From: Coriolopsis trogii
Taxonomy: Eukaryota; Basidiomycota; Agaricomycetes; Polyporales; Polyporaceae
Length of the DNA: 64,000 bases
Direction of reading: 5' to 3'
Assembly: GCA_020543525.1 (NCBI GenBank)
Contig: JAHYIO010000005.1
Span: 806,001 to 870,000 of the forward strand
In this document: positions 2,231-53,320 of the stretch, piece after piece
How the letters are laid out: every line of letters starts with the position of its first letter
Position numbering within the stretch: the first letter of the stretch is position 1
Position numbers and translations under genes: made by a program
Notes under the pieces: model-generated
What the model was told of the DNA's origin: nothing
Databases searched by the model: none
The model's input: the letters and a program-made list of their open reading frames with translations, nothing else

Positions 2231-3025
2231 CTGTTAGTATAGGTGAGCCACGGATGGTAAGAGAGCAATTTACCGTAGTGACGCCTGAGCAAGGTAGCAC
2301 AAGAACTCCACTAAAAGGGATGGCCAGCGCCCAAAAGGAAATGTGTGAAGGTTTCGACGAGGTGAGCAGAGATACGCGGGAGTGGCGACGGCCTCACGAT
2401 TGTTGGGTGTATTCGTCGGCTTCGGCGTCTAACCCGAATGGGGTGTCCTAGGGTAATCGAATGGCACGTCAAGAGGCGCAAGTAAGATCGGACAGGTTAG
2501 ATATGTTTTTGGACATGGTGCGAGGAGATAAGTAGAACTCAGCTTGGAAAATATGCGGACGAATCGTCAGTAGACGACGGGGACCGCATCAAACGAGCAC
2601 TTAACGCAGTGAACAGACACATGCATGAGCGACGACGTTGGAGTCGGTTCATTGTCCCTCTCAAAGTGAAAAGCACGGGTGCCTGGAAGGAGCGAGAATG
2701 TTTCCAAAAGCTTCGGAAGCGTATGAGATATGATGTGACCGTGTCCGCGGGCGATGCAAGGAGAATGCGGTAGTCAATGACTGAACAATGGGAGCGGAGA
2801 ATGGTACAGGTGACAAAGAGCGAGAAGAAACCATGGAGCCAAAAGCCCAGAAGCGTGGGTCACGATGATGGGCAGAATCGCGCCCTGTCGCGCATGCGCC
2901 GCGGAACACCCTTGGTACGTCCTACCCGCGATGAATGCTCGAGGTGGTATGCCCGATACATTCTACGTGGTGCTGAATGCTGTAAAATGGCGCAAAGAAT
3001 AGACGTTAATGGGCTTAATATAACG
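2231..3025 (-). repeat. Dispersed repeat copy A (inverted relative to 49.1-53.3 kb)
   Basis: Read on the minus strand, the part at 3025-2839 matches 49101-49275 and the part at 2837-2231 matches 52781-53320. Copy A therefore joins two pieces that lie 3.5 kb apart at the other locus. The junction is in TTTGGC|TCCATGG with a shared GC, as expected for a small-microhomology deletion. Relative to 52.9 kb, copy A carries about 66 extra bases near 2650-2720. The 3011-3025 end still includes a short EF-2-like stretch (RYVEPI in the other copy), so copy A descends from an EF-2 pseudogene locus. It abuts the TOM1-type pseudogene directly. Confidence 0.85.
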
Positions 3026-4330
3026 GCCCCGACGAAATCCTCATGTACTGAAAGAGGAGCCCGACGCCGTTGCGCTTGACGAACAAATCTGCGATGTTAG
3101 AGTCACAGGTCAAGAGAACAACCAGCTTCAAGACAGATATCAGCTCGTCCTTCGGTAGCGTCGGCACCGCTGGGAGACGCATATAGAACTCGAACAACGA
3201 GTTACGTGCCTCGGCATACCGCGACCTTGAGCAATTGCCTCGCGAACGATCAGGTCCTTCTCTCTTGGCAGTGTGGAGAGTCGCCGATGACAAGCAGCGA
3301 CTCAATGACGAGGAGCTGGGCCGGAAGCCAGTCTGGGATTGTGGGGTGATCGTCCCCATCAGGGTTGGAAAGGAGGAGAGATAGGAGCACGTTCATCAGG
3401 TCTTTGGCCTCTTCGTCTTGCATTTGCGCTGCTTGCGACCTAGGTTCGCCTAACATGAGAGCTAGAAGATGGCAACGAACAGCAGGCGGCTGCTCCTGCA
3501 CATCATATGCAGCTGGCGAGAACGCCTGGATGTCGTCGATGTGTGCCTTGACCGCTTGAGTGCGATACTCGCTGGTCGGGCCGACGAAGACCTCCTGCAT
3601 GTCGAAGACTAAAGTAGGATCATGATGTTTGTCGACCAGCCCAAGCTCGGCGACCGATGCCGTCCTCCAGCGGTTCTCGAGCCGTCTTCAACTCTTTCAC
3701 CCATTCGTCGGCACTCTTGCCGGGAGTAGAAGGAGGTTCCTTGACAATAGGCGCAACTGTCCGATGCAGCTGGAACCTCCGCCGGCAGTTGGGCAGCATC
3801 GCCAAGGCTTGACCTTCAGCTTGGCCCTCAACTTGGCCTTCAGCGGGAGCAGGAGCAGTTGCCACGCCCTCAGCAGGAGCAGGCTGCACCTCAGGTGCAG
3901 ACTCTGGATCGGGCGGGAAGGAATTCGGCGGAGCGAGGAGCAGCTCCGTCGATGCGTTGACGTAAATAGGAGTACGGACGAGTGTACGCTTAGCAGCCGA
4001 TTGAGGGAAGCCCACGTCCATGAGCTGCCGGATGCGGTTCTCGTCGGTGCCGGCGAGCTGAGACATGCGCGGGATGCCAGATGCGCCGCCACCGAGCATC
4101 GATGCTGACAACTGCACGTCCTTGATATCCTCGTTCTCAGTGTTCAACGGCTCCATGACAATATGCACGACGGACGTGACGCCGATGGGTGCGGATGGGA
4201 GCCAGGAGGTTTCCCAGATGGAATGAATGAGAGGAAGCGCAGCTCGACGCATCCGTACCAAGAAGTTGTGCGGCTCGAAGTAGTCGGGCTCCGTGTCCTT
4301 TTTGTCTGTAGTGATGGCAAGCGGCATCTG
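3026..4330 (-). pseudogene. Fragment of a TOM1/HUWE1-type HECT E3 ubiquitin ligase
   Basis: The minus strand encodes an internal piece of the giant HECT E3 family. It starts near DKKDTEPDYF and PLIHSIWE, continues through a UBA-like helix bundle (DENRIRQLMDVGFP, about 4050-3960), an Ala/Pro/Glu-rich linker, then AVKAHIDDIQAFSPAAYDVQ and NSLFEFYMRL..PKDELISVL. Family members exceed 3,000 residues and end in a HECT domain; here both the N-terminal armadillo region and the HECT domain are absent. Reading-frame breaks lie near 3640 and near 3260, where homologous sequence continues in another frame. It stops abruptly at repeat A. This is a truncated relic, not a working ligase. Assignment is from remembered family sequence, not a search. 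Confidence 0.8.
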
Positions 4331-5577
4331 TGATGACTCGAAGAGGGGACGGGAAGAGACACTACTCGCGGGAAAGGCTACAGAACGCGTCAAGACCACC
4401 TACGCCCAACAGAAGACACGGTCGACGGGAGGAGGCCTTGGAAGATTGAACACCAATGATGACAAGACAAGAGCAAGAGGTGACGGACTCACGAGACTAT
4501 AATTACTGTAGATAGCACGAAGTGAGTGACACTGGTGGACAATGGCCGCCCGGTCTTGAACGATAGCATGATTGTCTGTTGGCACAGTGAAGAACCCATA
4601 GTGCGCGACAAAACTACACACCGTTGTACCAGATGTGATGGTCAGTCTCTCCGAGCCATCTGCGCTAAGATGCTAATTGGGAACTCAATGCTCACCGATA
4701 TGTTACTGATTCCGAGTCCTTCGATGCCAGCAGATGCCAATGCGAATTTCATTCAGAAACTCATAACGGCAACAAAGTCTATCCTAGTCCAGCTATGCCG
4801 AAGCGGGCATGTTTCTTATTGACTAGCGTATCTTCAACGCTGAGGCGAAAGGGCAATGCGAGGGTACCACGAGGATTGTCGGAGTGGAATTCGCGAGAAA
4901 AGTTGCGCATATGCGAGTGAAGGTCTTGCGCGGCAGCAACGGCCTTCCCCATCATGCCAGATGTCGCGTGGACTGTGTCAGTTCGTGCGCGTGAAGGTGT
5001 AGACTGTCCAAAGACGCACTCTGCGGTACCCCAGGATTGTTGTGTACCAGAGCTAGTGTGCGTGAGGTCTCTCTGCAAGTTGGCAACGCACTGAGTGAGA
5101 GTAGTACCGAGGGAGTACACGCAAATGGAATCAGTGGACAATGAGTATACTCCTCGCGTCGAAACCGGGAAACACTCAACTCTGGACCTTACAAGTATTC
5201 AGTATTCCTCCTGTCCGCCTCTCGGCCTCGGTGGATATGTCGTCCGAGTGGCGGCTACAGAGAAAGAATAGACAGTGTATCGGGGGTGAGCAGCGCGCCG
5301 CGACAGTCGAATGGGAGGAGCAAGATGATAGAGAACTCGAACCATAGTCGTGGACTTCGAGGACGAATAGACCGGCATCTATAGATTGTGGTGGTGCGCG
5401 CGCATTCGTGACTTATCACACAACGTGTTCAGAAATGGTAATCGCGATATTCCGGATCCCCCGGCGCTTGGTACATGGACTAGTAGTGCGCATCCTCCCC
5501 GCCCGCCCCATTGCCTCAAACTACTCCAGACCAATATGACTTGTGTTCAAGATGCTCTAGTAAAAATATGAAGCTCG
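4331..5577. other. No supported gene
   Basis: Short frames only. Some of 4400-4620 may be further upstream TOM1-like relic, but I cannot recognise it. The right end is the insertion point of the copia element. Confidence 0.4.
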
Positions 5578-5582
5578 TTCCG
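5578..5582. repeat. Target-site duplication, left copy (TTCCG)
   Basis: Five bases TTCCG directly precede the 5' LTR and are repeated directly after the 3' LTR at 12086-12090. Five bp is the usual duplication for Ty1/copia integrases, so both element ends are intact. Confidence 0.95.
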
Positions 5583-6149
5583 TGTTGACATTCTGGATTT
5601 ACGGCTCTACCGGTCCGGAGTTGTGCACACAACCTTTGTATGGTCATGTTTACCTATGTTTAGATAGCGCTTACTATAGGCTGTGTTTCTACTTACCATA
5701 TACGGTTTTCTCTACGAAACTACTGTACATTCCCATGACCATATGGTTCCCTTGTCTTCCTGTGCGTTCTACAATGCACCAGAACATTCTAGACCTTATG
5801 TCTTACTCAGAATACTCTCGGCTCTTACTCATACGCCGAGTACGGACTCTTACTCATCGCTCTATGGTTAACATGTGACTGCTTCATTCGCTTACTCATG
5901 CACTCCTCTCTCCAGTATATAAGGCAGTCTGTTTGCCCCTCTGCTCTTCAGTCGTTCACTCACTGACTGAAGAGTAAGTCTCACTCATTACTTATGCTCT
6001 ACTACACTTTACTTACTAGTACTTGTAGTCTCTCTTTGTGTGACTTACAGGTACTAAACTATGCAATATAGTCGTTCACTCACTGACTGAAGATCTCTCT
6101 TTGTGTGACTTACAGGTCGCTCCAAGCCTTCCAGGTTCAGAGTTCATCA
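5583..6149 (+). repeat. 5' LTR of copia element
   Basis: 567 bp, TGTTGACA at the start and TTCATCA at the end. It contains a TATATAA box and two internal copies of a motif around CACTCACTGACTGAAGA. The only difference seen from the 3' LTR is A at 5781 versus G at 11717. Confidence 0.97.
5916..5922 (+). promoter_or_regulatory. TATA box of the LTR promoter
   Basis: TATATAA followed by AAGGCAG, about two-thirds into the LTR; the likely start of the genomic transcript lies 25-35 bp downstream. An identical copy is in the 3' LTR at 11852-11858. Confidence 0.6.
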
Positions 6150-6166
6150 GGTTATGAGCCCTGCGC
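6150..6166 (+). promoter_or_regulatory. Primer-binding site for a half initiator-tRNA
   Basis: GGTTATGAGCCCTGCGC follows the LTR without a gap. It is the exact complement of the anticodon stem-loop region of fungal initiator tRNA-Met (GCGCAGGGCTCATAACC), not of a tRNA 3' end. That is the half-tRNA priming mode of Hemivirus-type copia elements such as Drosophila copia. The tRNA sequence is from memory. Confidence 0.85.
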
Positions 6167-7202
6167 TCTAATCGGTTGCTTCTCTGTCGACACCTCTGCG
6201 CGCAACTCTTTGTACGTCGACTCTCTGCCCGTGCATCCCACTTTCCTACTCTCTTGACTGTGCCCGCCGACACTGCTGCCAGGGGGACATTTCTGCGCTC
6301 GTGACGCAGCCCTGAGCGCTTCGTAGTCAGTCTCTAGTCTACTATCGTTGTAACACCTGTTGTGCTCTCGAGGCACCTGGGTGATTCAGGCATCCCTCAG
6401 CCAGGCCACGCACTTGCGCCCGCCAGCTGTTGTACCCGGGGTGGTTAGCACCTTTGGACCGGAGGACAACCGTTCGGACCCTCCTTACGATACCTTTTTG
6501 CCTCGGTAGTTACTATAGCGTTTCTTGGGCACAGTTGGCGACTTCTACCCGGATTGTCGGTAATTTCGGCTTACTGGCTCTCTGGTTCACCTCAAAAGGT
6601 GCCCCTGTCCACCTTCCTCGCACGTGGCACGTCAATCATCGCGTATACTTTGAACCACCGTTCTGGAGCCGACTCTTCCAGCATCTCCTCATTCCTCTGA
6701 GTCTGAAGTCGAGGACATCGTTGATACTTCGACAGAAGCATCCTCTGACAGCTCAGGCAACGAGGAATCCTGCGAGGATCTTCCACACGTTTGGGACTCT
6801 GACGAACAAGTCGACGCCCACCTTCAAAGCGACGGTTGGTACAATTGTGCCGTGAGCCCCTGTCCTCATCGGTACAACAACGTTGCTTTACCGGAAGATC
6901 CCACATCGTTCGCTTGGCAACCTATCTCTCCCTACCAAGCAGACGAGGAGTTTCTTGCTGGAGTCAACACAGCTCTTCCAGTCGCATCCGATACACCCTA
7001 CGACACACCACTTGTCGTAGCGCTTCCTCTCGCCTCTAACACCCCATACGACATCCCTCTCGTCGCATCTCCGCATCTCTCTCCAATCGAAACTCTTCCT
7101 CCTCCTCTCGTCACTGCGCTTCCATCTGTTGCGCCTATATCCTTCACTCTAGACTTCGACGACGAGGATTATCTCCACTCTTCTCAGTACCTGCTTTCAA
7201 TC
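6167..7202 (+). other. Copia leader and possible upstream gag extension
   Basis: The gag-pol frame is open from 6654 but has no ATG before 7203. The stretch 6654-7202 would encode an acidic Ser/Asp/Glu-rich part and then Pro-rich repeats (TPYDTPLV, TPYDIPLV). It may be joined to an upstream ATG by a leader intron, or be untranslated leader. A separate 141-codon frame at 6430-6855 is probably chance. Confidence 0.5.
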
Positions 7203-10200
7203 ATGGGAGACGTCAAGATCGACTCGATCCCTATCCTTTCTTCGGCGAACCAGTACAATGACTGGGCTGCAAAGCTCAAGGGGTACTTCATCTTCATGGG
7301 CTGTTGGGAGATTGTCGAAGGCACCAAGACTGAGCCCTCTCCTGCCGGTACTACTGCCACTGCGGCAGAGTTAGTCGCCATAGAGGCATGGCAGAAGCTC
7401 AATGGGCAGGCTCGCGGCATGATGTATATGCGGGTCTCACCGAACTTCCACTACGTCCTCGATGCGAAGGTTCTGGGTCAAGGTGGTGCTGCTCCTCGTA
7501 CCATGACAGCCGCTGAGACCTGGGCCGCCATCAAGACGAAGTTTGGCACGCCCAACAGTGCTCACGTCTGGGGCATGTTCGAGTCGCTCGTTGCAGAGCC
7601 TCGCATGAACGATTCGAAGCCTCTCCAGGACCAGATGATGAAGATCATCAACCGCCTTCGCGACATTGATAGCAACGGCGTCAAGCTCAGCGAGACCATG
7701 CAGGCTCTCCTGTTGCTGTCGAAGGTCCCCGAGTCCTACCAGTCCATGGTTTCTGCGCTAATGGCTATTACGGACATTGACAAGATCACCCTCGACGACA
7801 TCCAGTCGAAGACCTTGGCCGAGGAGTCATTGCGCAAGAACGGACAGTCCGCCAACAAGGTCTCCCAGACCAAGCCGAAGCCTAAGGGTCCTTGCTCCTT
7901 CTGTGGCGGTAGTTCTCACCACGAGTCCAACTGCTACAAGAAGCACCCAGACAAGCGTCCCAAGGGCAAGAAGAAGGAGAAGGAGAGGGATAAGGACAAG
8001 GACAAGGGGAAGAACAAGGACACTACTTCTCATAGCCATGCACATGTCGTCTCTGAGTCTGTATCTGCTGTAAACGTACTTTCGGGTCCCTCGAACATCG
8101 CTGCTTCTTTCTATGATGAGGCTATGGCCTCGGACAGCTCGAAGTGGACCATGTGGCTTATGGACTCAGGAGCCTCTCAACATATCACCGGCGACATGTC
8201 TGACTTTTCTACCTACCAGCCTTTCGAGACCACTGTTCCCTTTGGAACGGCTGCGTCAGGTGAAAGTAGTGTTATCCATGCGCTTGGATCGGGAACGGTT
8301 GAAGGGATCGCGTACATCGATAATCAGAGCATCCCAGTCACCTTCAACAACGTCTACTACATCCCGCATGTGGAAGGTCGTCTTTTCTCGACGGGCTCCA
8401 TCGAGCGCAATGGTTATTCCTTGTTCCAAGGCGAAGGTTGCATGTGTATCTTTGACAAGCTACCTGATGGTGCTGTCAAACATGGTTCGATGATTCGTAT
8501 CATGGGTCGAAAGATCCTTGAGGCGAGGTACAACCCGAATAGCAACACGTACTGGACGCTCCTCGAACTCCGTAATGGTCAGCGTGTCCACCTCAATGTC
8601 CGTCGCTTCAAGACCTGGCATCGTCGCTTTGGTCATGCGGGCAAGGACGTGGTACGTCATCTTCCTAAGAACACCAAGGGAGTTGATGCCGTTGATCCTG
8701 CGGATGAAGAGCCATGTGACGGATGTGCCTTTGGCAAATCCACTCGCGCCCCCTTTCCACCTTCTGAGAAGCGTGCGACTGAAGTTCTCGAGCTCATCCA
8801 TACAGATCTCGATGGACCGATGCGTACTCAGGCTATCGGAGGATGGAAGTATTTTGCCAGTTTCATTGACGATTACTCTGGTCTTGCTCGCGCCTATTAC
8901 CTTAAGCACAAGTCGGATGCTATCAAAGCATTCCTCGACTATAAGGCATGGGCTGAGACTCAGACCGGTAAAAAGATCAAGAAAGTCCGCTCTGATCGAG
9001 GGGGGGAATACACGTCTAGCGAGTTCAGCGAGCTTCTTCGTTCGCATGACATCGAGCACCAGAAGACAGTTGCGGGTTCACCTCAACAGAATGGACGTGC
9101 TGAACGCTGGAACCGTACCATCACCGAGAAGGCTTTGTGTATGTTACATCAGGCTGGACTTAGTCACGGTTTCTGGCAACTTGCCATCGATGCAGCCGTT
9201 CATATCTACAATCGTCAACCTATGTGACGACACAAATGGCAATGCCCTATCACGTTGTGGGACGGTACCATACCGGACGTTTCCTACTTCCGCGTGTTTG
9301 GGTGCAAAGCCTTTGTGCATGTGCAGAAGGCGAAGCGCGAAGGGAAGCTCGACAAGAAGGCAGTCGAGATGATCTTCGTGGGGTATGAGCAGGGTTCCAA
9401 GGGGTATCGTTTTTGGAATCCGGCCACCCGTTCTATCGTCGTGTCCCGCGATGTGACATTCGATGAAGAGTCTTTCCCTGCACGAAAACTTCCTGGCAAT
9501 CAACCTGTCGCCCCCAGTGATAATCCGTTTGTGAATGACCAGTCGGATGAGTCCTCGAACGACGACTCTGACTTGGTCGATCCCAACGACATCCTGGACA
9601 TTCCCCTTCCCATTCCGCTTGATGTCCCACCACCGCTTGATCACTCTGTAGACGATGATGCGCCTGAAGCACCTGCTCCGGCTAATGCCCCTGATCGTCC
9701 TCCAACACCACCACCTGTTCCTGCTCCTCATCCTCCTCACCGTCGTGGTCGTAACAGACCAGTGGGAGATAATCAGCCTAGCATTGCTCGTGACCGTCCT
9801 CGTCATGACAAAGCAGGCATTCCCCACCCGAGTAGGACTCAGGACAACATCTATGGTGACGAGAACCCGGTTCATGTTGACGCTCGGACAGATCCGGATG
9901 GAGATCAGTGGGAGGCAGAGACTTTTCTCGCTTTTCTCGCTGCTGCTCAGTCGAAAGCTGGTATTCCTCAATCCCACAAGGAGGCCATGCGATCGCCTGA
10001 TGCTCCTGAGTGGTGCGAAGCTGAGAAGTCGGAGTATGACTCGCTCATCGAGAACAGGACCTGGGTACTTGTTCCTCGTCCTAAAGGTCGACACGTCGTC
10101 TCAAACCGCTGGGTTTATGACATTAAACATGATGGGCGGTATAAAGCTCGTCTTGTTGCTCGCGGTTTTACTCAAGTATGGGGTGAGGACTATCACGAGA

Positions 10201-11507
10201 CGTTCTCTCCGGTTGCGCGGTTCGAGTCTATCCGGTATCTTCTTGCGCATGCTGCGCTTGAGGACTGGGACATCAAATCTATGGATGTCAAGACCGCGTT
10301 TCTGAATGGCGATCTCGAAGAGGAGATCTACATGGAACAGCCCGAAGGCTGGGTCGTTCCTGGGAAGGAAGACCACGTCTGTCTGCTCAAAAAGGCTATC
10401 TATGGTCTTAAACAGGCGTCGCGTCAATGGAATGCGAAGATTCATCAGTCGCTTCTTGACTTGGGATTCCAACGGACTTATTCTGATGCCGGGATCTACG
10501 TATATCGGCGACAAGGGGGGGAACACGTAACGATTGTCGTACTCTATGTCGACGATCTACTTCTCATCGGCGATCAGTCTAGTCACATCAAGCACGTCAA
10601 GCGCTCTCTCTCTAAGCAGTACAAGATGACGGACTTGGGACCAGTCAAGCGCTTCCTTGGTCTTCGCATCACTCGAGATCGTTCTACTCGAACACTCGAC
10701 ATCGACCAGGAAGAGTATATCCAGTCTGTCCTTGAGCGTTTCCAGATGGCTGACTGTAAACCGTCGCGTACTCCTCTCCCTGCTGGTGCTGTTTTGGTGA
10801 AAACCGATCAGCCCGCTTCCGATTCATTCAGGCAACGCTACCAGAGTGTTATTGGCAGTCTTTTGTACGCCATGCTCGGGACGCGCCCTGATATTGCTTT
10901 CGCTGTCACACGGTTATCCAAGTACAATGCCAATCCCTCTGAAGCGCACATGAACTATGCCAAGTATGTCCTGCGTTACCTTCAGGGAACAAAGGCGTAC
11001 CGGCTGCGCTACAAGGGAGCGTCTAATGACGGTCTGATTTCGTACTCAGATTCGGACTGGGCGGAAGACCGTGATGATCGGCACTCAACCTCTGGCTTTG
11101 TCTTCTTGATGGCAGGTGGTGCTGTATCGTGGGCATCGAGGCGTCAGCCTACCATTTCGCTCTCCTCGACCGAGGCGGAATATAAAGCGGCCTCCGACAC
11201 TTGTCGTCAGTTGGCATGGCTGAGGACCTTCGGCGATGAACTCGGAGATGACGTGACTGATCCGACGCCTTTGTGTCTCGACAACCAAGGCTCGATCTTC
11301 TTGTCTGTCAATCCAGTCATTGACCGTCGTACCAAGCACATAGAGATCCGTTATCACTTCATTCGTGAACAGGTCGAGATGGGATCTGTCGAGATCTACT
11401 ATGTCGCTTCTGAGGACCAATTGGCCGACCCCCTCACGAAGAACGTGCCTTACTCCAATCAGGCCAAATTCGTTGAGGAGATAGGTCTTGTGTCCGTTGC
11501 ATCTTGA
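7203..11507 (+). pseudogene. Copia gag-pol polyprotein with one in-frame stop
   Basis: Single long frame of about 1,434 codons broken by TGA at 9225-9227. Start chosen at the first ATG (MGDVKIDSIP). Domains in order: gag capsid-like region (QYNDWAAKLKGYF), CCHC zinc knuckle (CSFCGGSSHHESNC, about 7889), aspartic protease (WLMDSGASQHITGD, about 8155), integrase HHCC head (WHRRFGH..CDGC) and DDE core (HTDLDG, RSDRGGEY, NGRAERWNR), then reverse transcriptase (WVYDIKHDGRYKARLVARG; YVDDLLLIG at about 10547) and RNase H (SDSDWAEDRDDRHSTSGF). After the stop, the same frame resumes with the integrase C-terminal GKPD-like part (DGTIPDVSYFRVFG). The stop context fits CGA to TGA, a CpG transition, so the element is newly disabled or needs readthrough. 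Confidence 0.95.
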
Positions 11508-11510
11508 ACG

Positions 11511-11518
11511 AGTGGGAG
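11511..11518 (+). other. Polypurine tract
   Basis: AGTGGGAG abuts the TG of the 3' LTR, three bases after the pol stop; position and composition fit the plus-strand primer of copia elements. Confidence 0.7.
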
Positions 11519-12085
11519 TGTTGACATTCTGGATTTACGGCTCTACCGGTCCGGAGTTGTGCACACAACCTTTGTATGGTCATGTTTACCTATGTTTAGA
11601 TAGCGCTTACTATAGGCTGTGTTTCTACTTACCATATACGGTTTTCTCTACGAAACTACTGTACATTCCCATGACCATATGGTTCCCTTGTCTTCCTGTG
11701 CGTTCTACAATGCACCGGAACATTCTAGACCTTATGTCTTACTCAGAATACTCTCGGCTCTTACTCATACGCCGAGTACGGACTCTTACTCATCGCTCTA
11801 TGGTTAACATGTGACTGCTTCATTCGCTTACTCATGCACTCCTCTCTCCAGTATATAAGGCAGTCTGTTTGCCCCTCTGCTCTTCAGTCGTTCACTCACT
11901 GACTGAAGAGTAAGTCTCACTCATTACTTATGCTCTACTACACTTTACTTACTAGTACTTGTAGTCTCTCTTTGTGTGACTTACAGGTACTAAACTATGC
12001 AATATAGTCGTTCACTCACTGACTGAAGATCTCTCTTTGTGTGACTTACAGGTCGCTCCAAGCCTTCCAGGTTCAGAGTTCATCA
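11519..12085 (+). repeat. 3' LTR of copia element
   Basis: 567 bp, offset 5,936 bp from the 5' LTR, one mismatch seen at 11717. Ends CATCA and is followed by the TTCCG duplication. Confidence 0.97.
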
Positions 12086-12090
12086 TTCCG
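12086..12090. repeat. Target-site duplication, right copy (TTCCG)
   Basis: Matches 5578-5582. Confidence 0.95.
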
Positions 12091-12115
12091 CATGTCCTAG
12101 TGAATGTCACTCACC

Positions 12116-12535
12116 TCAGTCTTCAGTCATCACATGCTCGTACTCCCACTCCATATAATCGTCTTCGCTTTCTGGTTCCTCCCCCATATCGACATCCTCG
12201 TCTCCGGCTCTCCCAGATTCCTCTTCTGGGTCGTCGACGGCCATCTCATTCTCCACAACCCACATTGGGTCATCGTCGTTCGTCCCCGAATGGGCGACGT
12301 TCGCCCCGCCCGCTGTGTTTGCCCCGCCCGCTGTGTTTGCCCCGCCCGCTGTGTGTGCCCCACCCGCTGTGTTTGCCCCGCCCGCTGTGTGTGCCCCGCC
12401 TGCTGTGTTTGCCCCGCCCGCTGTGTGTGCCCCGCCCGCTGTACTCGCCCCACCCGCTGAGTTCGCCCCTGCGGGGTTCGGGCCGAGTAGAGCCGTGATG
12501 TGATTGGTCGCGGTAATCGTAGGCGGGGCTTGCAT
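12116..12535 (-). CDS. Acidic protein with Ala-Xaa-Thr-Ala-Gly-Gly repeats
   Basis: From the ATG at 12535 the frame encodes about 139 residues. Nine hexapeptide units (ANSAGG, ASTAGG, AHTAGG, ANTAGG and so on) are followed by a strongly acidic tail (NDDDPMWVVENE, EPESEDDYMEWEYE). The frame stays open upstream to 12751 and reads like exon sequence, so the true start may be upstream or beyond an intron. I recognise no family; such acidic tails occur in nuclear proteins. The copia element sits about 30 bp past its stop and probably disrupts the 3' UTR. Confidence 0.5.
   Translation of the reverse strand: MQAPPTITATNHITALLGPNPAGANSAGGASTAGGAHTAGGANTAGGAHTAGGANTAGGAHTAGGANTAGGANTAGGANVAHSGTNDDDPMWVVENEMAVDDPEEESGRAGDEDVDMGEEPESEDDYMEWEYEHVMTED
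12300..12462 (-). repeat. 18-bp tandem repeat, about 9 units, coding
   Basis: Units around CCCCGCCCGCTGTGTTTG on the plus strand. Length is a multiple of three, so unit number can change without breaking the minus-strand frame. Alternation of TTTG and TGTG variants gives the alternating Asn/His at position 2. Confidence 0.9.
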
Positions 12536-34549: not shown

Positions 34550-34610
34550 CTAAACAAAGCGCACAGAAGATGAATGAGTTGACATACGCGTGAAGTACGT
34601 TGGGGTAGGT

Positions 34611-43602: not shown

Positions 43603-44491
43603 GAGTCATTGGCGTGAACGACTCGCTTGGAGTTCCCCCCGACAAGAATCCCGGTTGCGTGGGAAGCTCGGCGGGGTGACCGTGCAATCAGCTGGACGTT
43701 GATTGTTGCTCATTCGCTCTCCGTCGTACTCATTCCTTGCTCACGACATATATATGTATAACTTTTCGGTGCTCTCTGCATTGGGTCTCGTGGCTGTTTC
43801 TGTTTCTGACGTCTGAATATCAGTGCTTGTGATCAGTTTCTGCCACATGTGCCAATGCTCGCAATTTTGACGGTATATGTACGGTTGGTAGCCTCGTATT
43901 TGCAGGACACGTAGGGTAGCTCCCAGTGCTTGTTGTGCATGCACAATCAATAGGCGCTCGCTAGATTCCCACAGTGACTGGGCCCTTACAGGGCCACGTA
44001 TACGTATCTAGACCTTCCTTCTCGTCCTGCTTTACACCTATATAATTGCGCGCGTATCCATGTCTGTCCCGAATTTCGCAGCAGGGCAACACTCCAGTCA
44101 CTGACCTCTCGCGCGTTGTGTCGTCAAGTGTCCTCGTCCTGCGAGTCGCGACCGGCGATTACGGGATCTTGAAGTGTCCTCAGAGGTACGTAGGTTGACC
44201 CTTGATTCCTCAGGCACCCTAAGTCACTGCTCTCAGATTCTCCATTGTAACTAGCGCCCTCACATTGTTGAAGTCCGCACGTAGGTCCTCACGAATATGG
44301 TGGTATGTACGTAAAACTTTGCTGCCCCTTCGAAGAAGTTGCGTCTGGTGATTACAGACATAGTGACAACTCACTCTACAGGAAACTAGGCAATGACTTG
44401 GCGAGGTACCGGTGCGATTTAGAGCACCATGCGAGATGTGAGTAAAGAAAGCGACAAGAGACCGAGGGAAGGAGAGACCACGTCTAAGCCG
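43603..44491. other. No supported gene
   Basis: Downstream of the transposase; moderately AT-rich at 43740-43960. The right end of the Plavaka element must lie here or nearby. Confidence 0.4.
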
Positions 44492-44747
44492 TTACTTCCT
44501 GTTCGCCTTCTCCGCTGACTTGGCGAATGGCAACAGTTATCACCATGAAACATCATGCATCGTGGACTTGCCATTGCCATCAGACTTGTCGGTCTTGTCG
44601 ACCGACTCAATGATGACGACGGCGTCCGTCAGTCCCATGTTACGGATGGCAAGACGTTCGAGAGGGGGATACCCGTTGTAGGACTCCACGCACATCGGCT
44701 TGCTCGGAACAAGCTTGGTAATGCAGGCATAGCTAGACCTGACGAAA
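44492..44747 (-). pseudogene. C-terminal fragment of translation elongation factor EF-1alpha
   Basis: The minus strand reads LVPSKPMCVESYNGYPPLER then VDKTDKSDGNGK, and after a probable 49-bp intron SAEKANRK-stop. This is the end of EF-1alpha (family: VPSKPMCVESY..YPPLGRFAVRDM..VDKTDKSGGK..SAEKA). Substitutions in invariant positions (GRFAVRDM is ERLAIRNM here) and the absence of the GTPase domain show it is a relic. Homology starts abruptly at about 44747, where an unrelated gene begins on the other strand at 44802. Confidence 0.88.
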
Positions 44748-44801
44748 AGTAAGTATCCTCTTTCCTCTCCTTCACTTGGACATTCAGGCACAGGCACAGC
44801 A

Positions 44802-45710
44802 TGAACACGCCTCGAGGAGAGCAGACACCATCCAAGTCATCCGAATCTTTGTATCACGCCCCTCGTACTCCCTCGAGTAGGACACCTCATCGTGCGGCAA
44901 CACCTGCCCTTGATCACTCCCACAAGTGCGTTATACGTGTATTTCAGCAGCAATGCGTCATACTCACCTATCATGAGCTTCTACCATACTTTTTGACGAA
45001 CTTGTGTCGGCATCGCTTATTTCTATAGACAAGTCAGAACTCCCAGTGGATTCAGAGCGCAACTCGTACTTCCGTCGACTACCCACTTTGTCCGCTGCCG
45101 CCATCCCGAAAGCTCCCCCCCGAGTCCCTACAGGCGGTCGTCGACATGGTTTGGGAACACTCTTCGCGCTCGTTCAGATGTATTGAATGGGGCACTACAA
45201 GATGTACGCATGGACGAAGAGGTGTTCCTGACTGCTCACCAGTGGTTGCCGGGGCGTCTCGAGTACTCTCCAACCGGTATGTATCCACGTTCCTCGTCGA
45301 AGTGACGGGGAGGGACTGCAGATATCATGACGTCCTCTAAGCAGTTATCAGCGTCACAGCCGTCTCCCCGGACAGTTAGTGGGTCGCGAGTGCGCTGGGA
45401 AACGGCGCCGTCTGCTTTGACCGCATCCGGACGGACACAAGTTGGAAGATTTACAGATGTCGCCATGGCCGATTGCTTACAATTTGTGTTCCAAATAGCC
45501 GGCATCTCGCCGCGGCACACCGTTAAAGCATACTCATCTGGTACGTGCACTATGGCCGCCGATTCGCTCTGCTCTCCGCACGAATCATCATCGTTGACTA
45601 GTCCCCGGCAGCTAGCTGCATCTGGATCATGGGATGAAGGTGCTGGGACTTACCGCGGCCTACTTTTTGCGACTCATCCCTGCGCTCGACTAGTTGGACG
45701 CAGTGCGTAG
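44802..45710 (+). CDS. Unrecognised Ser/Pro-rich protein
   Basis: Starts MNTPRGEQTPSKSSESLYHA. Intron about 44935-45029, then an exon reading KQVRTPSGFRAQLVLPS and DVRMDEEVFLTAHQWLPGRL; intron of about 45 bp at 45280-45323; then SASQPSPRTVSGSRVRW, GRFTDVAMADCLQFVFQIAG and a last exon ending HPCARLVGRSA. The frame passes the C7 run at 45114-45120 without a break. About 260 residues, no membrane segment, Ser/Thr-Pro motifs at the N-terminus. No family recognised; the last exon is weakly supported. Confidence 0.5.
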
Positions 45711-46343
45711 GCGAGTCCTCTCCACTCTATCGATACGCCGGGCTGTCGTGGTAACGTTTTCACCCTTGATGCCAGGGAGTGCCGCGACAGTCCCATCTAC
45801 GAACTCCAACCAATCCGCGAAATCTTGTTTTGGGCAGAACCTATGTGAGCTGTCGGCATACTGGTGCAATCAACTCGAAAGACGTGGTGAGTGCTATTGC
45901 TGACTGGACCCCCACTCCTGCGACACGGACCGCCAGCTAACCCCTCCTCTGGGCCGTTGGACAAGGGTGAAAGCAATACGTTAGGGTGGAAGGTTGCTAC
46001 TAATTACACTAGCGACCGTCAGCATGATTGCCACGCGCTTTCACTCTCGACTCACATGTATCCCGTTATCTTCTTCGAATCTGTAGCACCACTCATCTCT
46101 GTTGCCATTCGAACGGTCAGGATGTCCACTAACTTGAGCCGCGATGAAGTTGTCGATCTCGATTGAACATGAGGCTGTCGGCGAGGCTTTCACAGTAGCC
46201 GCCGGTATATATGTGCCGCGCTCACGGCGCCTGTCTCCTTGTCCTTTCGTCTCGCCTACTCACCTCCCAAGAGTCGTCCGAAAGGTGTGCTGCCTTTGTC
46301 CTTGCCCTATACTGACACTCATCTTTTGCAGAACTGTTCAGTC
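45711..46343. other. Intergenic, includes F4 leader
   Basis: A frame at 45891-46166 could be a further exon of the preceding gene. 46280-46331 is a probable 5' UTR intron of the F4 gene (GTGTGC..TTTTGCAG). Confidence 0.4.
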
Positions 46344-47444
46344 ATGCGATACATAACCGCTGCCATTGCGATTGTGCTCGCCGCGATTGCGTTGCCTTTG
46401 TTCCCCCTGCTCTCACCATATGCGACATTCCTGTCCTCTGTTGACGAACTACACTTGGACCTTGACCATCCTCACATTAAGGAAGCAGAAGCCAGCATGA
46501 AAGCGGCGATCATCGCAGTCTTCTGTCTTCCCTGGCCTCTCTCCACTATCCCCTTTATGTGCATTCCGTCCGTACCCACCAATGGCACCTTTCCCGACGT
46601 CCTCAGTGTCCATCGCACTTACATCGAGGAGTGTTCCGCCGCCGCTCCTTCTCCGGATACGATCGCATCCATCCTTGGAGTCGCCCAGGCCGCCGACTTC
46701 GCCTTAGCCGTCGATGACTATATCCTTCTCGCAGAGGACGGTTCTCTGAGCATCCGCGGCATCGGCGATGTTTTACTCCTTGTGCAGATAACCAAGACGT
46801 CGCGCTTGTTGGCTCTGGAGATGTACCGTCTCATCGCTCACATTGAACTCAGCGTGCAGAGGTATGTCCATCCCCGCTTAGCCGAGGTTATTGACAGCTC
46901 ATGCCTCTTTTGCGACAGGCTCATGCTGATCTATCGCATCTCTGCGATGGCCATGTCAGCTCTGGAACCCGCGCAAACACTGATTGGTCGCTTCACTCTG
47001 TACTTCGAGCCCGTTGTGGCTGTCTCCTCTTCCGCCTCTCAGAGCTCTGCCTACCATGTCGAAACGGCGAGGCAGCGCGTGTATACCACCGCTGTGCACC
47101 TCTCGGCCTTGTTGAGAGCGATCACGGAAGGATCCGATCTGCACACGCAATGCCAGAAAGTCAAATTCATGGATGCATGTACCGGAATCCAGCCGTTGTT
47201 CCAGGCAGAATCCTCCCTCAATTATCTCTTGACGACCATGGAGACCCTTAAGGTTGCGTTGGATTCCGGGGAGACGTACTGGAATCGGTATGCTCATGTC
47301 GGGAGAGCTACCAGGCAGGATCTCACTGCGACCAAGGCAACAATAGGCTTGTCCTTGGACATTCTCGAGGATCGTCTGTTGATGGTCCGCGCTGTGCGCG
47401 AGGCTGTTGCAGAGACGTTGGAAGCGGCGGATTTGTTGGATTAG
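46344..47444 (+). CDS. Orphan family F4, right copy: protein with two N-terminal hydrophobic segments
   Basis: Exons 46344-46861 (518 nt) and 46919-47444 (526 nt), 57-bp intron, 347 residues. Hydrophobic segments are ITAAIAIVLAAIALPLFPLL (about 4-23) and AAIIAVFCLPWPLSTIPFMC (about 52-71). The loop between has SPYATFLSSVDELHLDLDHP, close to the left copy. The C-terminal half is helical and ends AVAETLEAADLLD. ATG chosen by alignment with the left copy at 16876; because the intron is a multiple of three, an unspliced reading also stays open. Appears intact. Orientation is opposite to the left copy. Function unknown. Confidence 0.85.
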   Translation: MRYITAAIAIVLAAIALPLFPLLSPYATFLSSVDELHLDLDHPHIKEAEASMKAAIIAVFCLPWPLSTIPFMCIPSVPTNGTFPDVLSVHRTYIEECSAAAPSPDTIASILGVAQAADFALAVDDYILLAEDGSLSIRGIGDVLLLVQITKTSRLLALEMYRLIAHIELSVQRYVHPRLAEVIDSSCLFCDRLMLIYRISAMAMSALEPAQTLIGRFTLYFEPVVAVSSSASQSSAYHVETARQRVYTTAVHLSALLRAITEGSDLHTQCQKVKFMDACTGIQPLFQAESSLNYLLTTMETLKVALDSGETYWNRYAHVGRATRQDLTATKATIGLSLDILEDRLLMVRAVREAVAETLEAADLLD

Positions 47445-48312
47445 TAACCGATTGATTGTAACACATTTGTACCAGGAGAATGTTGAGTTGGTGTACCGTC
47501 TTGATATCGAGGCGCGGGGCACGTAGAGACGGACGAATAATGGAAATTGGTCGTAGCAAGGGGTCTCCGACGGCGACAGGCCTCCTAAAAAGTACCCGGG
47601 CAAAAAACACGTGATGCTCGGCGCTGTCCCTGCGGACGCGGACATAGGAATCGTGGCTTATTCGCGATCTTATGTCTCGTTCAGTTATGAGTCACGACAG
47701 ATTGTGCTGTTAGACTTCTGAATACCACTCGCCGTTTCGTCGCCCTTCCCAACCTGCTTTGCGGCTACGAAGTATGTACGGACATCGCAGGAGTGGGCCA
47801 CATTCCGGAGGCAACCTTGGGTTGAGCATGCGATTGGTATGTCTCAACTGCACGTCCATACTCACCGTCGCGATACTGATGGGCTGTATGTTTATCTTCT
47901 GACACAGGCATGAGGCGCACGGGGCCTTCCTCGTGAATAGTGAATACTGATAGCTTGTTGGTGAGTGCCAGCTCATCCCGCATTGTTCTGCATGTCTTGT
48001 AGTGAGTATGCTTGCCTGTTATTGTACGGTCCCGCGAACGTGTTAAAACCCGGAATCCTTCAAGTCCTGCTTAGGTTGAGGTATCAGAAAGGGTGTCTCG
48101 CTCATGGCGAGAACATCATCCGCCAATTGAGAGGTGAGTATGTTCCGATTCCGACTAGAGGACAATTGAAGAGTCGGACCGTCCCAGAGGAAACATGTCC
48201 GTTCTCACAACGACTCCCGACGCCACGCTCAAGGGGCCATAGTCGAGGGTGAATCAGGTCAACTCGGTCCAGGCAAAAGAGTGCACTGGCATAATCAGGT
48301 GGGCCTTCTCGT
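47445..48312. other. No confident gene
   Basis: A minus-strand frame from an ATG at 47983 (MRDELALTNKLSVFTIHEEG) with a donor near 47862 could be a small gene or relic. The EF-2 N-terminal GTPase part, expected before 48313, was not recognised. Confidence 0.4.
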
Positions 48313-49125
48313 CATCTACAAGGTCGACCGTGCTCTCATTGAACTTCCGGTTACGAATGAGAACCTTTTCTAGTCGTGCTCTCGTACTGTTCAATCCGTC
48401 AACTTCATCATCTTGCCATCATCTCGACCTAACACCATGCCGCTCCTGGTGACGTCCAGCTTTGCCCCGAATTGGGTACCGTCGCCCTCGGTCCCGGTCT
48501 TCACGGATAGATTTTCGTTCTCCTTCAGCTCGCTGCCCGTTACTCCAGGATGTTTGTTGGAATGTTCGTTGTGGACAAGGATCAGATGTTGAGGCCCCGG
48601 GGTAACCCTCCCGAAGACGAAATGAACGATAGAGTGTCGACGCCGATGGTAAGCCTCTTGAGCATGCCAACACGTTCATTTTTGACACTATCTCAAACAT
48701 CTGAGATGCCATCAGAACTATACGAAGGACGAGGTCTTCAAGATCTGCGAGAAGCTCGACATCAAGCTCGCTTAGGACGAGCGCGACCTCGAGGGTAGTG
48801 TCGTGGATGACTCCCTTTTGCAGATGATCGTCATCCGCCTCTACTCTCTCGCCAGCGCCAGTGGTGTCGTCTCGAGACCCTCTACGAGAGTTCTATGGAC
48901 GAGTCTGCCGTGAGTGTTATCTCAACGATGCCCATCTTCTGCTACATACTTTGTATACGGGTCGCTTCAACGCTTTCGGTCGTGTCTTCTCTGGTCTCGT
49001 CTGTGCTTGTCCCAAGATCCGTATCCAAGGCCCAACTACGTTCCCGGAAAGAAGGACGACCTGTTCGTCAAGTCCATTTAGCATCCCGTGCTCATGATGG
49101 GTCGTTATGTTGAGCCCATTGACAT
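48313..49125 (+). pseudogene. Translation elongation factor EF-2 relic, part 1 (middle of protein)
   Basis: Successive frames give KVDRALIELPVTNE, SRTVQSVNFIIL, GDVQLCPELGTVALGPGLHG, AARYSRM..VDKDQM, DADGKPLEHANTFIFD, KDEVFKICEKLDIKLA-stop-DERDLEG, RLETLYESSMDES, FNAFGRVFSG, KIRIQGP and LMMGRYVEPID. This is the EF-2 order from the G-domain effector part to domain II. There are several frameshifts and in-frame stops (for example TAG after IKLA), so it is long dead. No introns are seen, while the locus continues with EF-2 pieces at 49870 and 52112. Confidence 0.9.
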
Positions 49126-49275
49126 CTATCATTTGCGCCATTCCACAGCATCTCAGCACCATGTAGAATGTATCAGGCATACCACCTCGAGCATTCATCA
49201 CGCATAGGACGTATCAAGGGCGTTCCGTGGCGCGATTCTGCCTATCGTCGTGGCCCACGCTGCTGGGCTTTTGGC
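49101..49275 (+). repeat. Dispersed repeat copy C
   Basis: Inverted match to 2839-3025. It starts inside the EF-2 relic (CGTTATGTTGAGCCC) and continues into non-EF-2 sequence. Confidence 0.8.
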
Positions 49276-49869
49276 CTCGCTCTGGTCAGCCGATGTGCAA
49301 GACGCATCAACTGGAGTAACTCGTGCATCTCAACTTGGCGCACTACGCGTCCAATCTCAGATACACACACCGTAATTGTAAGGCTTTGTCTGCGATCTAC
49401 TGGCGTCTTCTGACTTGTGGGCTGGACAGGCGGGCGGAGACATCAAGAACAGTTCACATCCCGCATGATAGACGGACACGACGCGCTGGAATGTTGGAAG
49501 ATAATCATTCGGCCCGTAATGAAGAGGTCAAGAAGCTCAAGCCCAGCCACATGAATGACTCGAGCGCCGACCCGATGCCCCATTCGGCTCCTAACCTGTT
49601 CGCTCCGTCGACTATACACCGGTTGCACACCGACCACAGTGCGAGTCAGTGAGCTCATTCAAGCGCGTCGCCTGCGAGAAGCTCTTCCAGGGCGACCTGG
49701 TTCAGCGCGTGAAAGGTGAAGCACCGTCCGTCATTGGCCTCGGGAGGTGGAGACCGATATTTACAAGGTGCGTCCTGACCCCCATCATGCTCTTCGTGCT
49801 GCATCGCTCGTCTGCTCTGCACCCCATTCGCGCTCGCGAGCATTGATGTCTATGTGACAGTCCGTTGCC
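49126..49869. other. Unknown insert inside the EF-2 relic
   Basis: About 744 bp replace the roughly 195 codons expected between EPID and the SQNKHN region of EF-2. No reading frame matches EF-2 and nothing else was recognised. Confidence 0.5.
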
Positions 49870-49912
49870 TGTTAAGGCCGGTCGCGCCTTGAAGTTGCAG
49901 AATAAGCACAAT
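49870..49912 (+). pseudogene. EF-2 relic, part 2 (ALKLQNKHN)
   Basis: Short stretch PVKAGRALKLQNKHN corresponds to the TVKAESS..ALSKSQNKHN part of EF-2, directly before the RLY residues found 2.2 kb downstream. Confidence 0.65.
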
Positions 49913-50039
49913 TATTCGTTTCCATCAAGAGTATCCATGTCACAGGCGATGGTTCCCACCCCGCACCTCCTCTCTGACCTCCTCCGCCCGTCATTCGCGC
50001 TCGAGCAGACAACCGTCCAGTGGCAGGGGAAACGAAGGC

Positions 50040-52090
50040 GACGTGGAAGAAAGCAACGACGACGACGACAGCGACGACGAAGGCACTGATATCTTCTATC
50101 CCCCGATCATCCCTCGCTTCTTCTCCCCGTATTTCTCGCGTCTCTGGAGCTCTCCTTGAACCTCAAGCTCTTGCATCCGCTCTCTTGCCCTTGCATCAGG
50201 ACACGAGATCCGCGTCCATGCAAAAGCCTGTGCCGCCCGATGACGACACCGCCTCCGTCTCGCGCACTCCATCCAACTCGTCCATATCATCTGCGGCTTC
50301 TTCGACCAGCGGCGGGGGCGACGAGATCTTCTCGGCTCCCTCGGTGACCACGTCAACACGACCTACGACTGCAGCTGGTTCTGAACGAAGTAGCAAGCCA
50401 CCGTCGGACTCGGTTGAGACCATCACTGTAGCCTCCAGTACGAGATCACGCGCAAAGGCTGCAGGCTCGACCTCATCGTCACGCCTATCCGGAAGCAGGC
50501 CTTAGAGGATGCAAAGAAGTTGACCTACACTGACGGGGACTGGGCCCAAGACTTACGGTGGCTTTCGCCCCCGAAGATGCCGGCTGCACATGCTGCAGGC
50601 CAAAGTCGCAAGCGCTCACGGACACTCCCCCCAGACGTTCAAGTCGGCATCCCGCCACCCGACAGTACCCCCACCGACAGCAGACGACCGCGCCCAGGCG
50701 GCAAGGGAGACCGAAAGGGCAAGCGCAAACGGAATTCATGCGGCCGGATGTCCGTACTGTGGGAGGTAGACGACAGCGAAGAGTGCAGCACCGAAGTTAG
50801 CAGCACAGAAGTCAGTCGTTCGACCACGCCCATACCCGAGACTCCTCCGCACTCCCTGTCTACGTCCCCTCTCGCGAAAGTGGGCACGCTCCCAGGCAAA
50901 CCCGATTTGATAGAGGAGAACACGCCGTCCGAATCGACACAACCGGAAAGTACCCCAGACGCACGTTTGCAAAAGTACGCGCGAGGCCACCGACGTACTC
51001 TGTCAACAGTATCATCCCTTTTCCGGCCTGAGGGCACTGCCTCGTCCAACGCTCATCTCCCTACTCATCCGCTTCCCAATCCGTCGCATCGACATCGACA
51101 AGCGCACCTGCAAATGGCTATTCCGGCCTCACCTTCCTCATGCCGGCTACTCGAACGCGAAAGGGAAGGCGAGCGCGGAAGGGCCATTTCCGCTGCCGTT
51201 CTGCGACGGCTCCTCTGCACTACTGTCCGGCACCGGACCGACCGGCCAATGCGGGAGGGAGCACGTTGACAAACGTCCGAATCGCGCGGCGCGCAGGGAC
51301 ACCGCACAGAGGGAGCAGAGCAAGCTCCTCTATGGTCCGTGGTGCAGGAGCGAGCGGTGAATGCGCGTGGGGGAACGCCCCAATTGACTACGCAGATGAG
51401 TATGTTGTCGCGGAGGAAACAAGGTAGCCGTGCGCGCGCGAGGTTGAGGGACGCGGTGCACACGGTGACGATTCACAACGATGAACTCAGCAAGTGCTCA
51501 AAATTCAGCTTACGTTTCTCGTTCTTGCCACACGCATGCATTGCATCACAACACATGTCGTAGTGGCACGCCCAAAGCCTGAAGTACGAAGAGTAGCATA
51601 CATTCTTCTTTTCCACAGCCCGACAACCCACTCGCCTCTCTTGCACACCTCTTCTCACACCGCCCAACCGCACTCGATAACCTTTCCCACAAAACTCCGC
51701 CCCGGTATGAGACCCGCCTTCCCGCCTCCCACACCTTTGCCGCCTCCCACCGTCCCGCCGTTACCGCTCATGCCAGACTTGTCGTGGACGATGAGGGAGT
51801 CAAGCGTCACCAGACCCACGGCGTGGACTTGAACGAGAACGTGGTTTTCTGGGGCATACGACGGCGGAGCGACGTGCGCCGTGAACGCAACGGGCAGCGG
51901 CAGGGTGCCCTGCAGATGCACAGGCGTCGCGTTTTCCCGCTTTTTGGACTTGAGGTTGAGGGTGAACGAGCGGCCAAGTGAGAATGGGAAAGGTTTGCGC
52001 CGCTTCGCGCCTCCTGGTGCCGTCGCGTGGGACACGGTGGCGGCGACCCCACGGATGACTTCGATGGTGACCATGCTGCTCTGCGCGACG
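50040..52090 (-). pseudogene. Medium-chain dehydrogenase/quinone oxidoreductase-like relic nested in EF-2 relic
   Basis: Minus strand, 5' part: APENHVLVQVHAVGL and GLIPGRSFVGKVIECGW, the GroES-like N-terminal fold of medium-chain dehydrogenases, followed by TGA at 51657-51655, then EEVCKRGEWVVGLW, and in other frames ALAEFIVVNRHRVHRVPQP and IEELALLPLCGVPA. These are the expected consecutive motifs, spread over three frames, so the gene is broken. The 50.0-51.0 kb part should hold its Rossmann half but is not recognisable. It separates EF-2 residues KHN (49912) and LYAK (52112), so it inserted into the EF-2 copy. Plus-strand frames at 50020-51269 are its antisense. Confidence 0.65.
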
Positions 52091-52111
52091 CCTGCGCGCA
52101 CTAGATCGACA

Positions 52112-52740
52112 TGGCTGTACGCGCGAAACCGCAGCCCATTGACGAGTGCCTCACTCTGGCCATCGAATCCGGCAAGATCAACGCGCGCGGGAATCACAGA
52201 GCCCGTGCCCTTGTCCTCGCCGACGAGTTCGGCTGGTACGTCACCGATGCCTGGTGTCCCCCAACATAACTCCCTCGTCGATGTCACCAAGGGTGTGCAG
52301 TACATCAGCGACCCAAGGATTTGTGCGTTCCTGCGTTCCAGTCGGCGACGAAGGAGGGTGTCCGCTGAGGAGAACATGCGTAGTGTCCGTGTGAACATCC
52401 TCGATGTCACGGTAGGTTTATTGACGAATTTCTAGGGTTGAGGATCGCCGGCTAATACCATCTCCATGCTGTGCAATTCACCGTGGTGGAGGACGAATCA
52501 TCCTTACGTGCCGTCGTGTCATCTACGCCGCGTGCGTGCTCGCAGAGCCTTCCCTCCAGGAGTCGATCTATACCTCGGTGCGTATTACGTCTCGAGCTTA
52601 CTGTGATCTCCTGCTGATCAATTTGATTACTCAATACTCGATGTCCAATACCCAGAAAACGTCATTGGTGGTATCTACTCGGTGCTCAACGAGCGCTGTG
52701 GAGCTTCCCTTGCACGTCCGCGCACCTCAGAAGATATACC
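52112..52740 (+). pseudogene. EF-2 relic, part 3 (C-terminal domains IV-V)
   Basis: Reads [93 protein letters not shown] and IGGIYSVLNERCG in three frames, the order of EF-2 domains IV and V including the diphthamide-loop His context (HRGGG). Several frameshifts. Homology ends just before repeat copy B at 52781. Confidence 0.9.
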
Positions 52741-52780
52741 CCCTGTCCCTATGTTGCCCAAACGGAGTCTATCGCGGAGC

Positions 52781-53320
52781 TCCATGGTTTCTTCTCGCTC
52801 CTTGTCACCTGTACCATTCTCCGCTCCCATTGTTCAGTCATCGACTACCGCATACTCCTTGCATCGCCCGCGGACACGGTCACATCATATCTCATACAAT
52901 GAACCGACTCCGACGTCGTCGCTCATGCATGTGTCTGTTCACTGCGTTAAGTGCTCGTTTGATGCGGTCCCCGTCGTCTACTGACGATTCGTCGGCATAT
53001 TTTCCAAGCTGAGTTCTACTTATCTCCTCGCACCATGTCCAAGAACATATCTAACCTGTCCGATCTTACTTGCGCCTCTTGACGTGCCATTCGATTACCC
53101 TAGGACACCCCATTCGGGTTAGACGCCGAAGCCGACGAATACACCCAACAATCGTGAGGCCGTCGCCACTCCCGCGTATCTCTGCTCACCTCGTCGAAAC
53201 CTTCACACATTTCCTTTTGGGCGCTGGCCATCCCTTTTAGTGGAGTTCTTGTGCTACCTTGCTCAGGCGTCACTACGGTATATTGCTCTCTTACCATCCG
53301 TGGCTCACCATTGCTAACAG
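52781..53320 (+). repeat. Dispersed repeat copy B
   Basis: Inverted match to 2837-2231, about 95% identical by eye, lacking a 66-bp segment present in copy A (deletion flanked by AC). Coding status unknown; part reads SSRSLSPVPFSAPIVQS in one frame in both copies. Confidence 0.88.

Follow-up and report, generated by a model that had tools for sequence, protein, structure and literature searches.

We have analyzed a 64,000-nucleotide stretch of the Coriolopsis trogii (Polyporaceae) genome (contig JAHYIO010000005.1, here C5, positions 806,001 to 870,000; "the window") and find that the mirrored gene cluster it contains is the interior of one giant EnSpm/CACTA-type DNA transposon, element A, a reading to which we assign a probability of roughly 0.92. 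Element A (C5:801968-860426, no strand assigned; window part 1..54426, counting from the window's first letter) begins 4,033 bp outside the window and ends at window position 54426. It is 58,459 bp long, or 51,951 bp without a nested copia-like element, and carries about a dozen genes as a single block. The assembly searched comprises 38.8 Mb in 39 contigs.

Ends, target site duplications and copies of element A

A second, near-identical copy lies on contig C8; its right part continues on C39 and likewise on C38, a short contig that is redundant. Comparison of C5 with C8/C39/C38 reveals homology that starts and stops at terminal inverted repeats (TIRs): at C5:801967 or 801968 and C8:1095692 or 1095693 on the left, and at window 54426 or 54427 and C39:8047 on the right. 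The right TIR (54359..54426, minus strand) is 68 nt long, begins with CACAAGG, and is identical at 67 of 68 positions to its left partner, C5:801968-802035. The target site duplication TCA follows it (54427..54429, unstranded), with the same three bases ahead of the left end; the second copy has ATA on both sides, to give the junctions TCA-CACAAGG...CCTTGTG-TCA on C5 and ATA-CACAAGG...CCTTGTG-ATA on C8/C39. Direct comparison of C5 with C8/C39 finds the sequence beyond both ends to be unrelated between the two giant copies, and samples farther out are also unmatched, these being weak tests that assume a fixed offset.

A search of the genome with the terminal repeat lists 11 matches: five fall at ends of the giant copies, with C38 included in addition to C39, and the other six are the two ends of each of three ≈0.6-kb elements. 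These derivatives share the 5'-CAC..GTG-3' ends of both giant copies and are flanked by 3-bp target duplications of their own (AGA, AAC and TGC), and matching duplications are thus present at all five insertions examined. Two of the derivatives are identical over 606 bp yet differ in their flanks, and have therefore moved recently.

Because matching 3-bp target duplications stand at each site, an assembly artefact, which the preliminary description of this DNA had named as a possible source of the two arms, is unlikely to have produced element A. The same junctions bear on the idea of a single copying event, in which part of an ordinary chromosome was duplicated onto another one and the terminal repeats are coincidental. 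Just two full copies are found among the matches listed, and the assembly contains another large duplicated block, both in keeping with a segmental duplication, but the breakpoints coincide with TIRs at four of four ends, the possession of a separate 3-bp duplication by each site weighs strongly against it, and there are 0.6-kb elements that share these ends and likewise have target duplications; we consider this origin very improbable. Still less credible is an allelic reading, in which the two copies would represent a single locus in the two haplotypes of a dikaryon and the unit would be a recognition cluster undergoing rapid evolution. The ≈99% identity and the common gene order of C5 and C8 would fit alleles, but the flanks are unrelated on both sides, on which ground we rejected the haplotype reading, and PF00562 matches occur at only three places, as expected for three polymerase subunits, so that the assembly looks single-copy in this one test. 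Nor is there a hypervariable gene between the copies, which differ by 0.1-2.0% of bases per kb and have equal gene content as far as assembled. Nothing here points to balanced diversity of alleles. The earlier suggestion of a self-recognition locus fails for the same reasons, the copies being non-allelic; a mating-type locus was likewise rejected, with no homeodomain match among the models scanned.

Transposase and superfamily assignment

The transposase gene (39309..43494, plus strand), which we aligned with Trametes versicolor P0003, matches PF02992 Transposase_21 (tnp2) with an E-value of 1.4e-16 and 60.8 bits against a cut-off of 28.6, with SAP matches slightly under cut-off. Together with CAC..GTG termini and 3-bp target duplications, the tnp2 domain fits an assignment of element A to EnSpm/CACTA. 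We also searched 5.8 billion proteins with three queries from element A (this transposase, and the F3 right protein and an F4 alignment described below), using a method that relies on shared exact words and may miss fast-evolving relatives. The transposase returns 70 listed relatives (7,990 candidates scored), many from Polyporales, with the closest among those listed in Lentinus, Trametes, Lenzites, Cubamyces and Ganoderma. As far as a mobile gene can indicate its host, this distribution suggests one close to Polyporaceae.

The preliminary description had taken this gene for a Plavaka element inserted in the right arm, an identity that we reject, as the Pfam Plavaka score is 14.4 bits, below the cut-off of 26.3, and the termini are CAC..GTG. 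A nested insertion with ends of its own was rejected as well: the 38-47 kb interval holds no convincing terminal repeats around the gene, and none of the 24 short inverted pairs listed there resembles a transposon end. A Pfam scan of the 14 element gene models, with unmodelled stretches lying outside the scan, finds no tyrosine recombinase captain. The transposase of copy 2 contains one-base gaps that are probably sequence errors, because such gaps concentrate at the contig end of C8 (7-13 per kb in C8:1133000-1136347, equivalent to window 40000-43396, vs 0-3 elsewhere).

The mirrored interior

Each half of element A, read inward, has the order TIR-F4-F3-F2-promoter-F1. That the same families recur on both sides had been claimed from the sequence before and is borne out by our own gene models: the mirrored order is real for F2 to F4, with left/right shuffle z-scores of 82 for F4, 9 for F3 and 6 for F2 without its first 28 residues, against a maximum of 3.4 among 41 non-cognate pairs (500 shuffles for each cognate pair, 60 for each non-cognate pair). 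The z-score of F1 is 0.6. Position speaks for the pairing of F1 and homology by sequence does not, and the mirrored order likely includes F1 because two equal exon lengths (80 and 71 nt) add support. Comparison of the window with itself returns the inverted pairs 24784-26072/34603-35891, 2231-2655/52896-53320, 2721-2839/52779-52897 and 2896-3029/49099-49233, with weaker pairs within F4.

F4 left (15774..16876, minus strand) is a 351-aa protein with an N-terminal hydrophobic anchor and is 41% identical over its full length to F4 right (46344..47444, plus strand; 347 aa), whose copy on C39 is gap-free over the 1,054 nt present. F3 left (22307..23576, minus strand; about 300 aa, 3' exons uncertain) and F3 right (37200..38663, plus strand; 346 aa) are 27% identical. 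The 38% identity of F2 left (23919..24869, minus strand; 240 aa, with a C-terminal hydrophobic segment) to F2 right (35806..36893, plus strand; 284 aa) is inflated by 28 identical N-terminal residues, and in copy 2 F2 right has a one-base gap close to its end. F1 left (26063..26933, plus strand; 184 aa) and F1 right (33692..34612, minus strand; 5' end uncertain) are 26% identical. F1 right may be decaying, to judge from an ATA start codon in copy 1 and, in copy 2, an ATG followed by an early stop in the model. Hydrophobic anchors are computed for F2, F4 and the WD40 protein described below.

Exon lengths equal on both sides are 98 nt for F3 exon 1, 147 and 71 nt for F2 exons 2 and 4, and the two of F1. 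Of the equalities first reported, those of F3 exon 1 and F2 exon 4 stand, but F3 exons of 180 and 294 nt are not reproduced on both sides (294 nt on the right only) and F4 exon 2 measures 518 vs 526 nt.

Neither F3 right nor the F4 alignment finds a relative among the 5.8 billion proteins (7,999 candidates scored for the F4 alignment), and this is not for lack of fungi, since the transposase found relatives in the same collection. In the genome, F3 right and F2 right have no listed match outside element A, except that F2 right has a single insignificant one (E 0.34). A PDB sequence search returns one match each for F4 and F3 (E 0.96 and 0.57), and a defence library searched with F4, F3 and F2 gives one weak match, of F3 right to a restriction enzyme model (E 0.015); across Pfam, PDB and this library no informative family or structure match emerges for F2-F4. 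The predicted structure of F4 is all-helical, with a predicted local distance difference test (pLDDT) score of 38.7, too poor for a fold search.

Conversion of the promoter islands

The left inner island (24784..26072, unstranded) comprises the shared divergent promoter, the first F2 codons and the F1 start, and its inverted copy in the right arm (34603..35891, unstranded) differs from it by 4 substitutions in 1289 bases. These 1.29-kb islands, which run between F2 codon ≈28 and the start of F1, are therefore 99.7% identical between arms, and the earlier statement that left and right are strongly diverged holds for the coding parts (26-41% identity) but not here. In copy 2 the arms differ by 4 of 1311 bases and four indels, and between copies the island shows 13-15 differences and an insertion of ≈23 bases. 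By alignment column, 34 group the islands by copy (≈23 of them one indel) vs one by arm, whereas the outer 425-nt repeat groups by arm (one difference left/left, one right/right and 6-8 left/right), as does the subterminal 529-nt repeat. From this opposite grouping it follows that, once the copies had separated, each of them underwent conversion between its arms at the promoter island, with the outer repeats spared. The island edges fall at F2 exon 1 and the F1 start, where coding divergence begins, and this divergence may be what halts the conversion tract.

The right subterminal inverted repeats (52779..53839, minus strand) are 119, 425 and 529 nt long, with left partners at 2721-2839, 2231-2655 and C5:803093-803618 that are 97, 98 and 95% identical, and the left outer inverted repeats (2231..3029, plus strand) have partners at 49099-49275 and 52779-53320. 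Among the matches listed, the 119- and 425-nt repeats occur only in element A copies. The outer repeat had been called dispersed, which is not what we find: all 11 of its listed matches sit at the ends of element A or its second copy. A 77% similar stretch also ties the core (window 29615-29783) to the left end of element A (C5:802129-802299).

Other predicted cargo, nested element and constraint

The SSD gene (18819..21047, minus strand), with an SSDESDHE motif, occupies the mirror position of the transposase, and its relatives are listed only in the element A copies, in a second duplicated region (region B, below) and at one C20 site. The single-copy core holds a gene for a WD40 protein (27222..29143, plus strand; Pfam WD40) with a computed C-terminal hydrophobic segment. 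X32 (32125..33371, minus strand; 270 aa) has no Pfam family match; its C-terminal part recurs at a few other sites, and X32 is also listed at three places on C34 and C36.

The nested long terminal repeat (LTR) retrotransposon (5583..12085, plus strand; 6,503 bp) is copia-like by eye, with 568-nt LTRs that are 99.8% identical and a 5-bp duplication, TTCCG. It is absent from copy 2, where its empty site is clean. Just right of it, inside element A, window 12267-12487 contains head-to-tail 18-nt repeats.

Between copy 1 and copy 2, 10 of 12 gene models accumulate 30 synonymous and 33 nonsynonymous changes, with a nonsynonymous-to-synonymous ratio (pN/pS) of 0.35 (P 4e-5). This sum leaves out the transposase and F4 right, for which the copy 2 length differed (F4 right was taken from C38; C39 is gap-free), and keeps F1 right though its frame, with 9 stops, is wrong. 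When F1 right and F2 right are both excluded, 25 synonymous and 25 nonsynonymous changes give a pN/pS of 0.31 (P 5e-5). Taken together, the reading frames are constrained, with too few changes to judge single genes.

Between the right inverted repeats, window 48200-52800 contains decayed fragments with a weak EFG_IV match below cut-off; beyond this match, we take them to resemble elongation factor 2, and they look as if they were a captured piece of a host gene. A gene model at window 3620-4752 has a weak UBA-like domain below cut-off and is possibly a captured host gene fragment. Outside element A, an alpha/beta hydrolase gene lies in the right flank (window 59000-63200).

A second duplicated region with related genes

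Searches with F4 and the WD40 protein also find region B, on C1 near 3.43 Mb and at the ends of C5 and C2. Relative to element A, its tnp2-type transposase is 45% identical (first 340 residues), SSD 35-40%, X32 31% and F4 31-34%, the F4 gene again having two exons in the same layout (536 and 517 nt here). WD40 genes are present twice and match at 30-33%, with a C-terminal hydrophobic segment computed for the second and read by eye in the first, and SSD and the transposase both fall to one side of F4. For an F3-like gene the evidence is no more than suggestive (z 8.5 and 3.3; hhalign probability 3.8%, E 0.011). Because region B carries these related genes, the transposase, F4, WD40-membrane protein, X32 and SSD look like a recurring module.

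Region B further contains a tandem array of ≈67-nt units (C1:3451600-3454100, C2:406000-409300), after which C1 has a stretch that matches the window's LTR element at 99% identity. A third SSD-like gene at C20:2043892-2044282 (66 and 53% identity) may mark another giant element.

Several points weigh against our reading of element A and its extension to region B. The copies of region B are ≈96-99.7% identical over at least 41.5 kb of C1 with their ends not reached, and that region B is a transposon of element A's kind is something we infer. The transposase of the window copy keeps the motifs DGFNP and ADLLA and has a lysine at a position occupied by glutamate in copy 2, region B and two relatives; these motifs and the replaced glutamate we take to be DDE catalytic residues, and with lysine in place of a conserved glutamate the window copy may no longer be self-mobile. 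Window 43397-45808 is absent from copy 2, which spans C8 and C39. The gene models are our own intron-aware predictions from genomic sequence, and the left/right homology of F1 is not significant by sequence.

Proposed origin of the symmetry and possible role of the cargo

We propose that element A descends from an ancestor formed either through inverted duplication or when two related elements joined head to head. The coding parts would then have diverged between arms, with SSD retained in the left slot between F3 and F4 and the transposase in the right one. Gene conversion between arms would keep the divergent promoter equal, with recombination stopping where the coding sequences have grown too different. 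The transposase encoded by element A or by a relative would act on the ends and move the whole block, with the F genes, the WD40-membrane protein, X32 and SSD as cargo.

Head-to-head fusion of two diverged, related giant elements, as opposed to inverted duplication within one, appears to us less likely than not. Consistent with fusion, the divergence of left from right (41% to 26% identity) is far deeper than that between copies and comes close to the distance from region B (F4 31-34%), and SSD and the transposase take the same slot on opposite arms, yet in region B are both found to one side of F4; F4 left and right are, however, closer to one another than to region B, and no single-arm element was seen. 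The preliminary description had explained the symmetry by an old inverted duplication followed by divergence. Our results support this for F2-F4 and also for the terminal repeats, but not its picture of a chromosomal cluster with inserted transposons; the whole cluster is one transposon at two non-homologous sites.

The most likely general role predicted for the cargo is to help the element persist in its host. A stronger proposal, that the cargo forms a selfish drive or host-interaction module (e.g., toxin-antidote or counter-silencing) in place of passive passengers, strikes us as rather unlikely: constrained reading frames, hydrophobic anchors on F2, F4 and the WD40 protein, and the recurrence of part of the module in region B would all suit it, but F2-F4 have no informative family or structure match and the single structure model is of low confidence.

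We put at about even odds a broader interpretation, in which polypore-type fungi carry an undescribed giant EnSpm lineage with a conserved cargo module (F4, WD40-membrane, X32, SSD and perhaps F3), a cut-and-paste counterpart of Starships. In one family this module would be mirror-doubled, with two divergent promoters kept equal by gene conversion while the proteins diverge, so that one mobile unit would have a membrane-linked system, perhaps a selfish one, in two copies that are co-regulated yet diversified.

Comparison with known systems

EnSpm/CACTA elements, in the account given in a section of one source, have CAC..GTG ends and a 3-bp target duplication (PMC12730594). Element A shares both, together with a tnp2 domain and short derivatives. 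A passage of a 2019 review calls families of 16-20 kb with 4-5 open reading frames significantly enlarged (PMC6431247), and element A is unlike these in its length of about 52 kb, about a dozen genes, mirror-image interior and homogenised promoter. Plavaka termini are given in part of the former source as TGT..ACA (2 bp) or CATCA..TGATG (PMC12730594); element A resembles Plavaka in having a transposase from a related clade in Agaricomycetes, and differs in its CAC..GTG termini and in a Plavaka Pfam score below cut-off. The same source also describes, in part, fungal EnSpm/Plavaka elements with captured non-transposase genes, TET/JBP (PMC12730594). Element A too carries non-transposase genes within an element of the EnSpm kind, but the 14 models scanned contain no TET/JBP match and its cargo consists of orphan families in mirror order.

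Starships are classified by their tyrosine recombinase, according to portions of two reports (PMC12134995, PMC13066641). They have mostly been described from Pezizomycotina, and eight, of 41,942-605,797 bp, are known from a report on the basidiomycete Tremella fuciformis (PMC13066641). Like Starships, element A is a giant fungal element that moves many accessory genes as one unit; unlike them, it has a tnp2 transposase, CAC..GTG ends and 3-bp target duplications. We found no comparable giant EnSpm element in the open-licence literature, which is not proof of absence; the giant cargo transposons of fungi encountered there are Starships, those of Tremella included.

The size limits of eukaryotic cut-and-paste transposons are under discussion, as part of the 2019 review sets out (PMC6431247), and element A is an EnSpm element far beyond 16-20 kb whose mirrored interior is unusual. 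At 52 kb, with a tnp2 transposase, cargo under constraint and target duplications that are clean, it makes gene-block transport by cut-and-paste in mushroom-forming fungi testable. Its promoter islands, homogenised within each copy between flanking proteins that are 26-41% identical, offer a small natural example in which gene conversion is mostly restricted to regulatory sequence.

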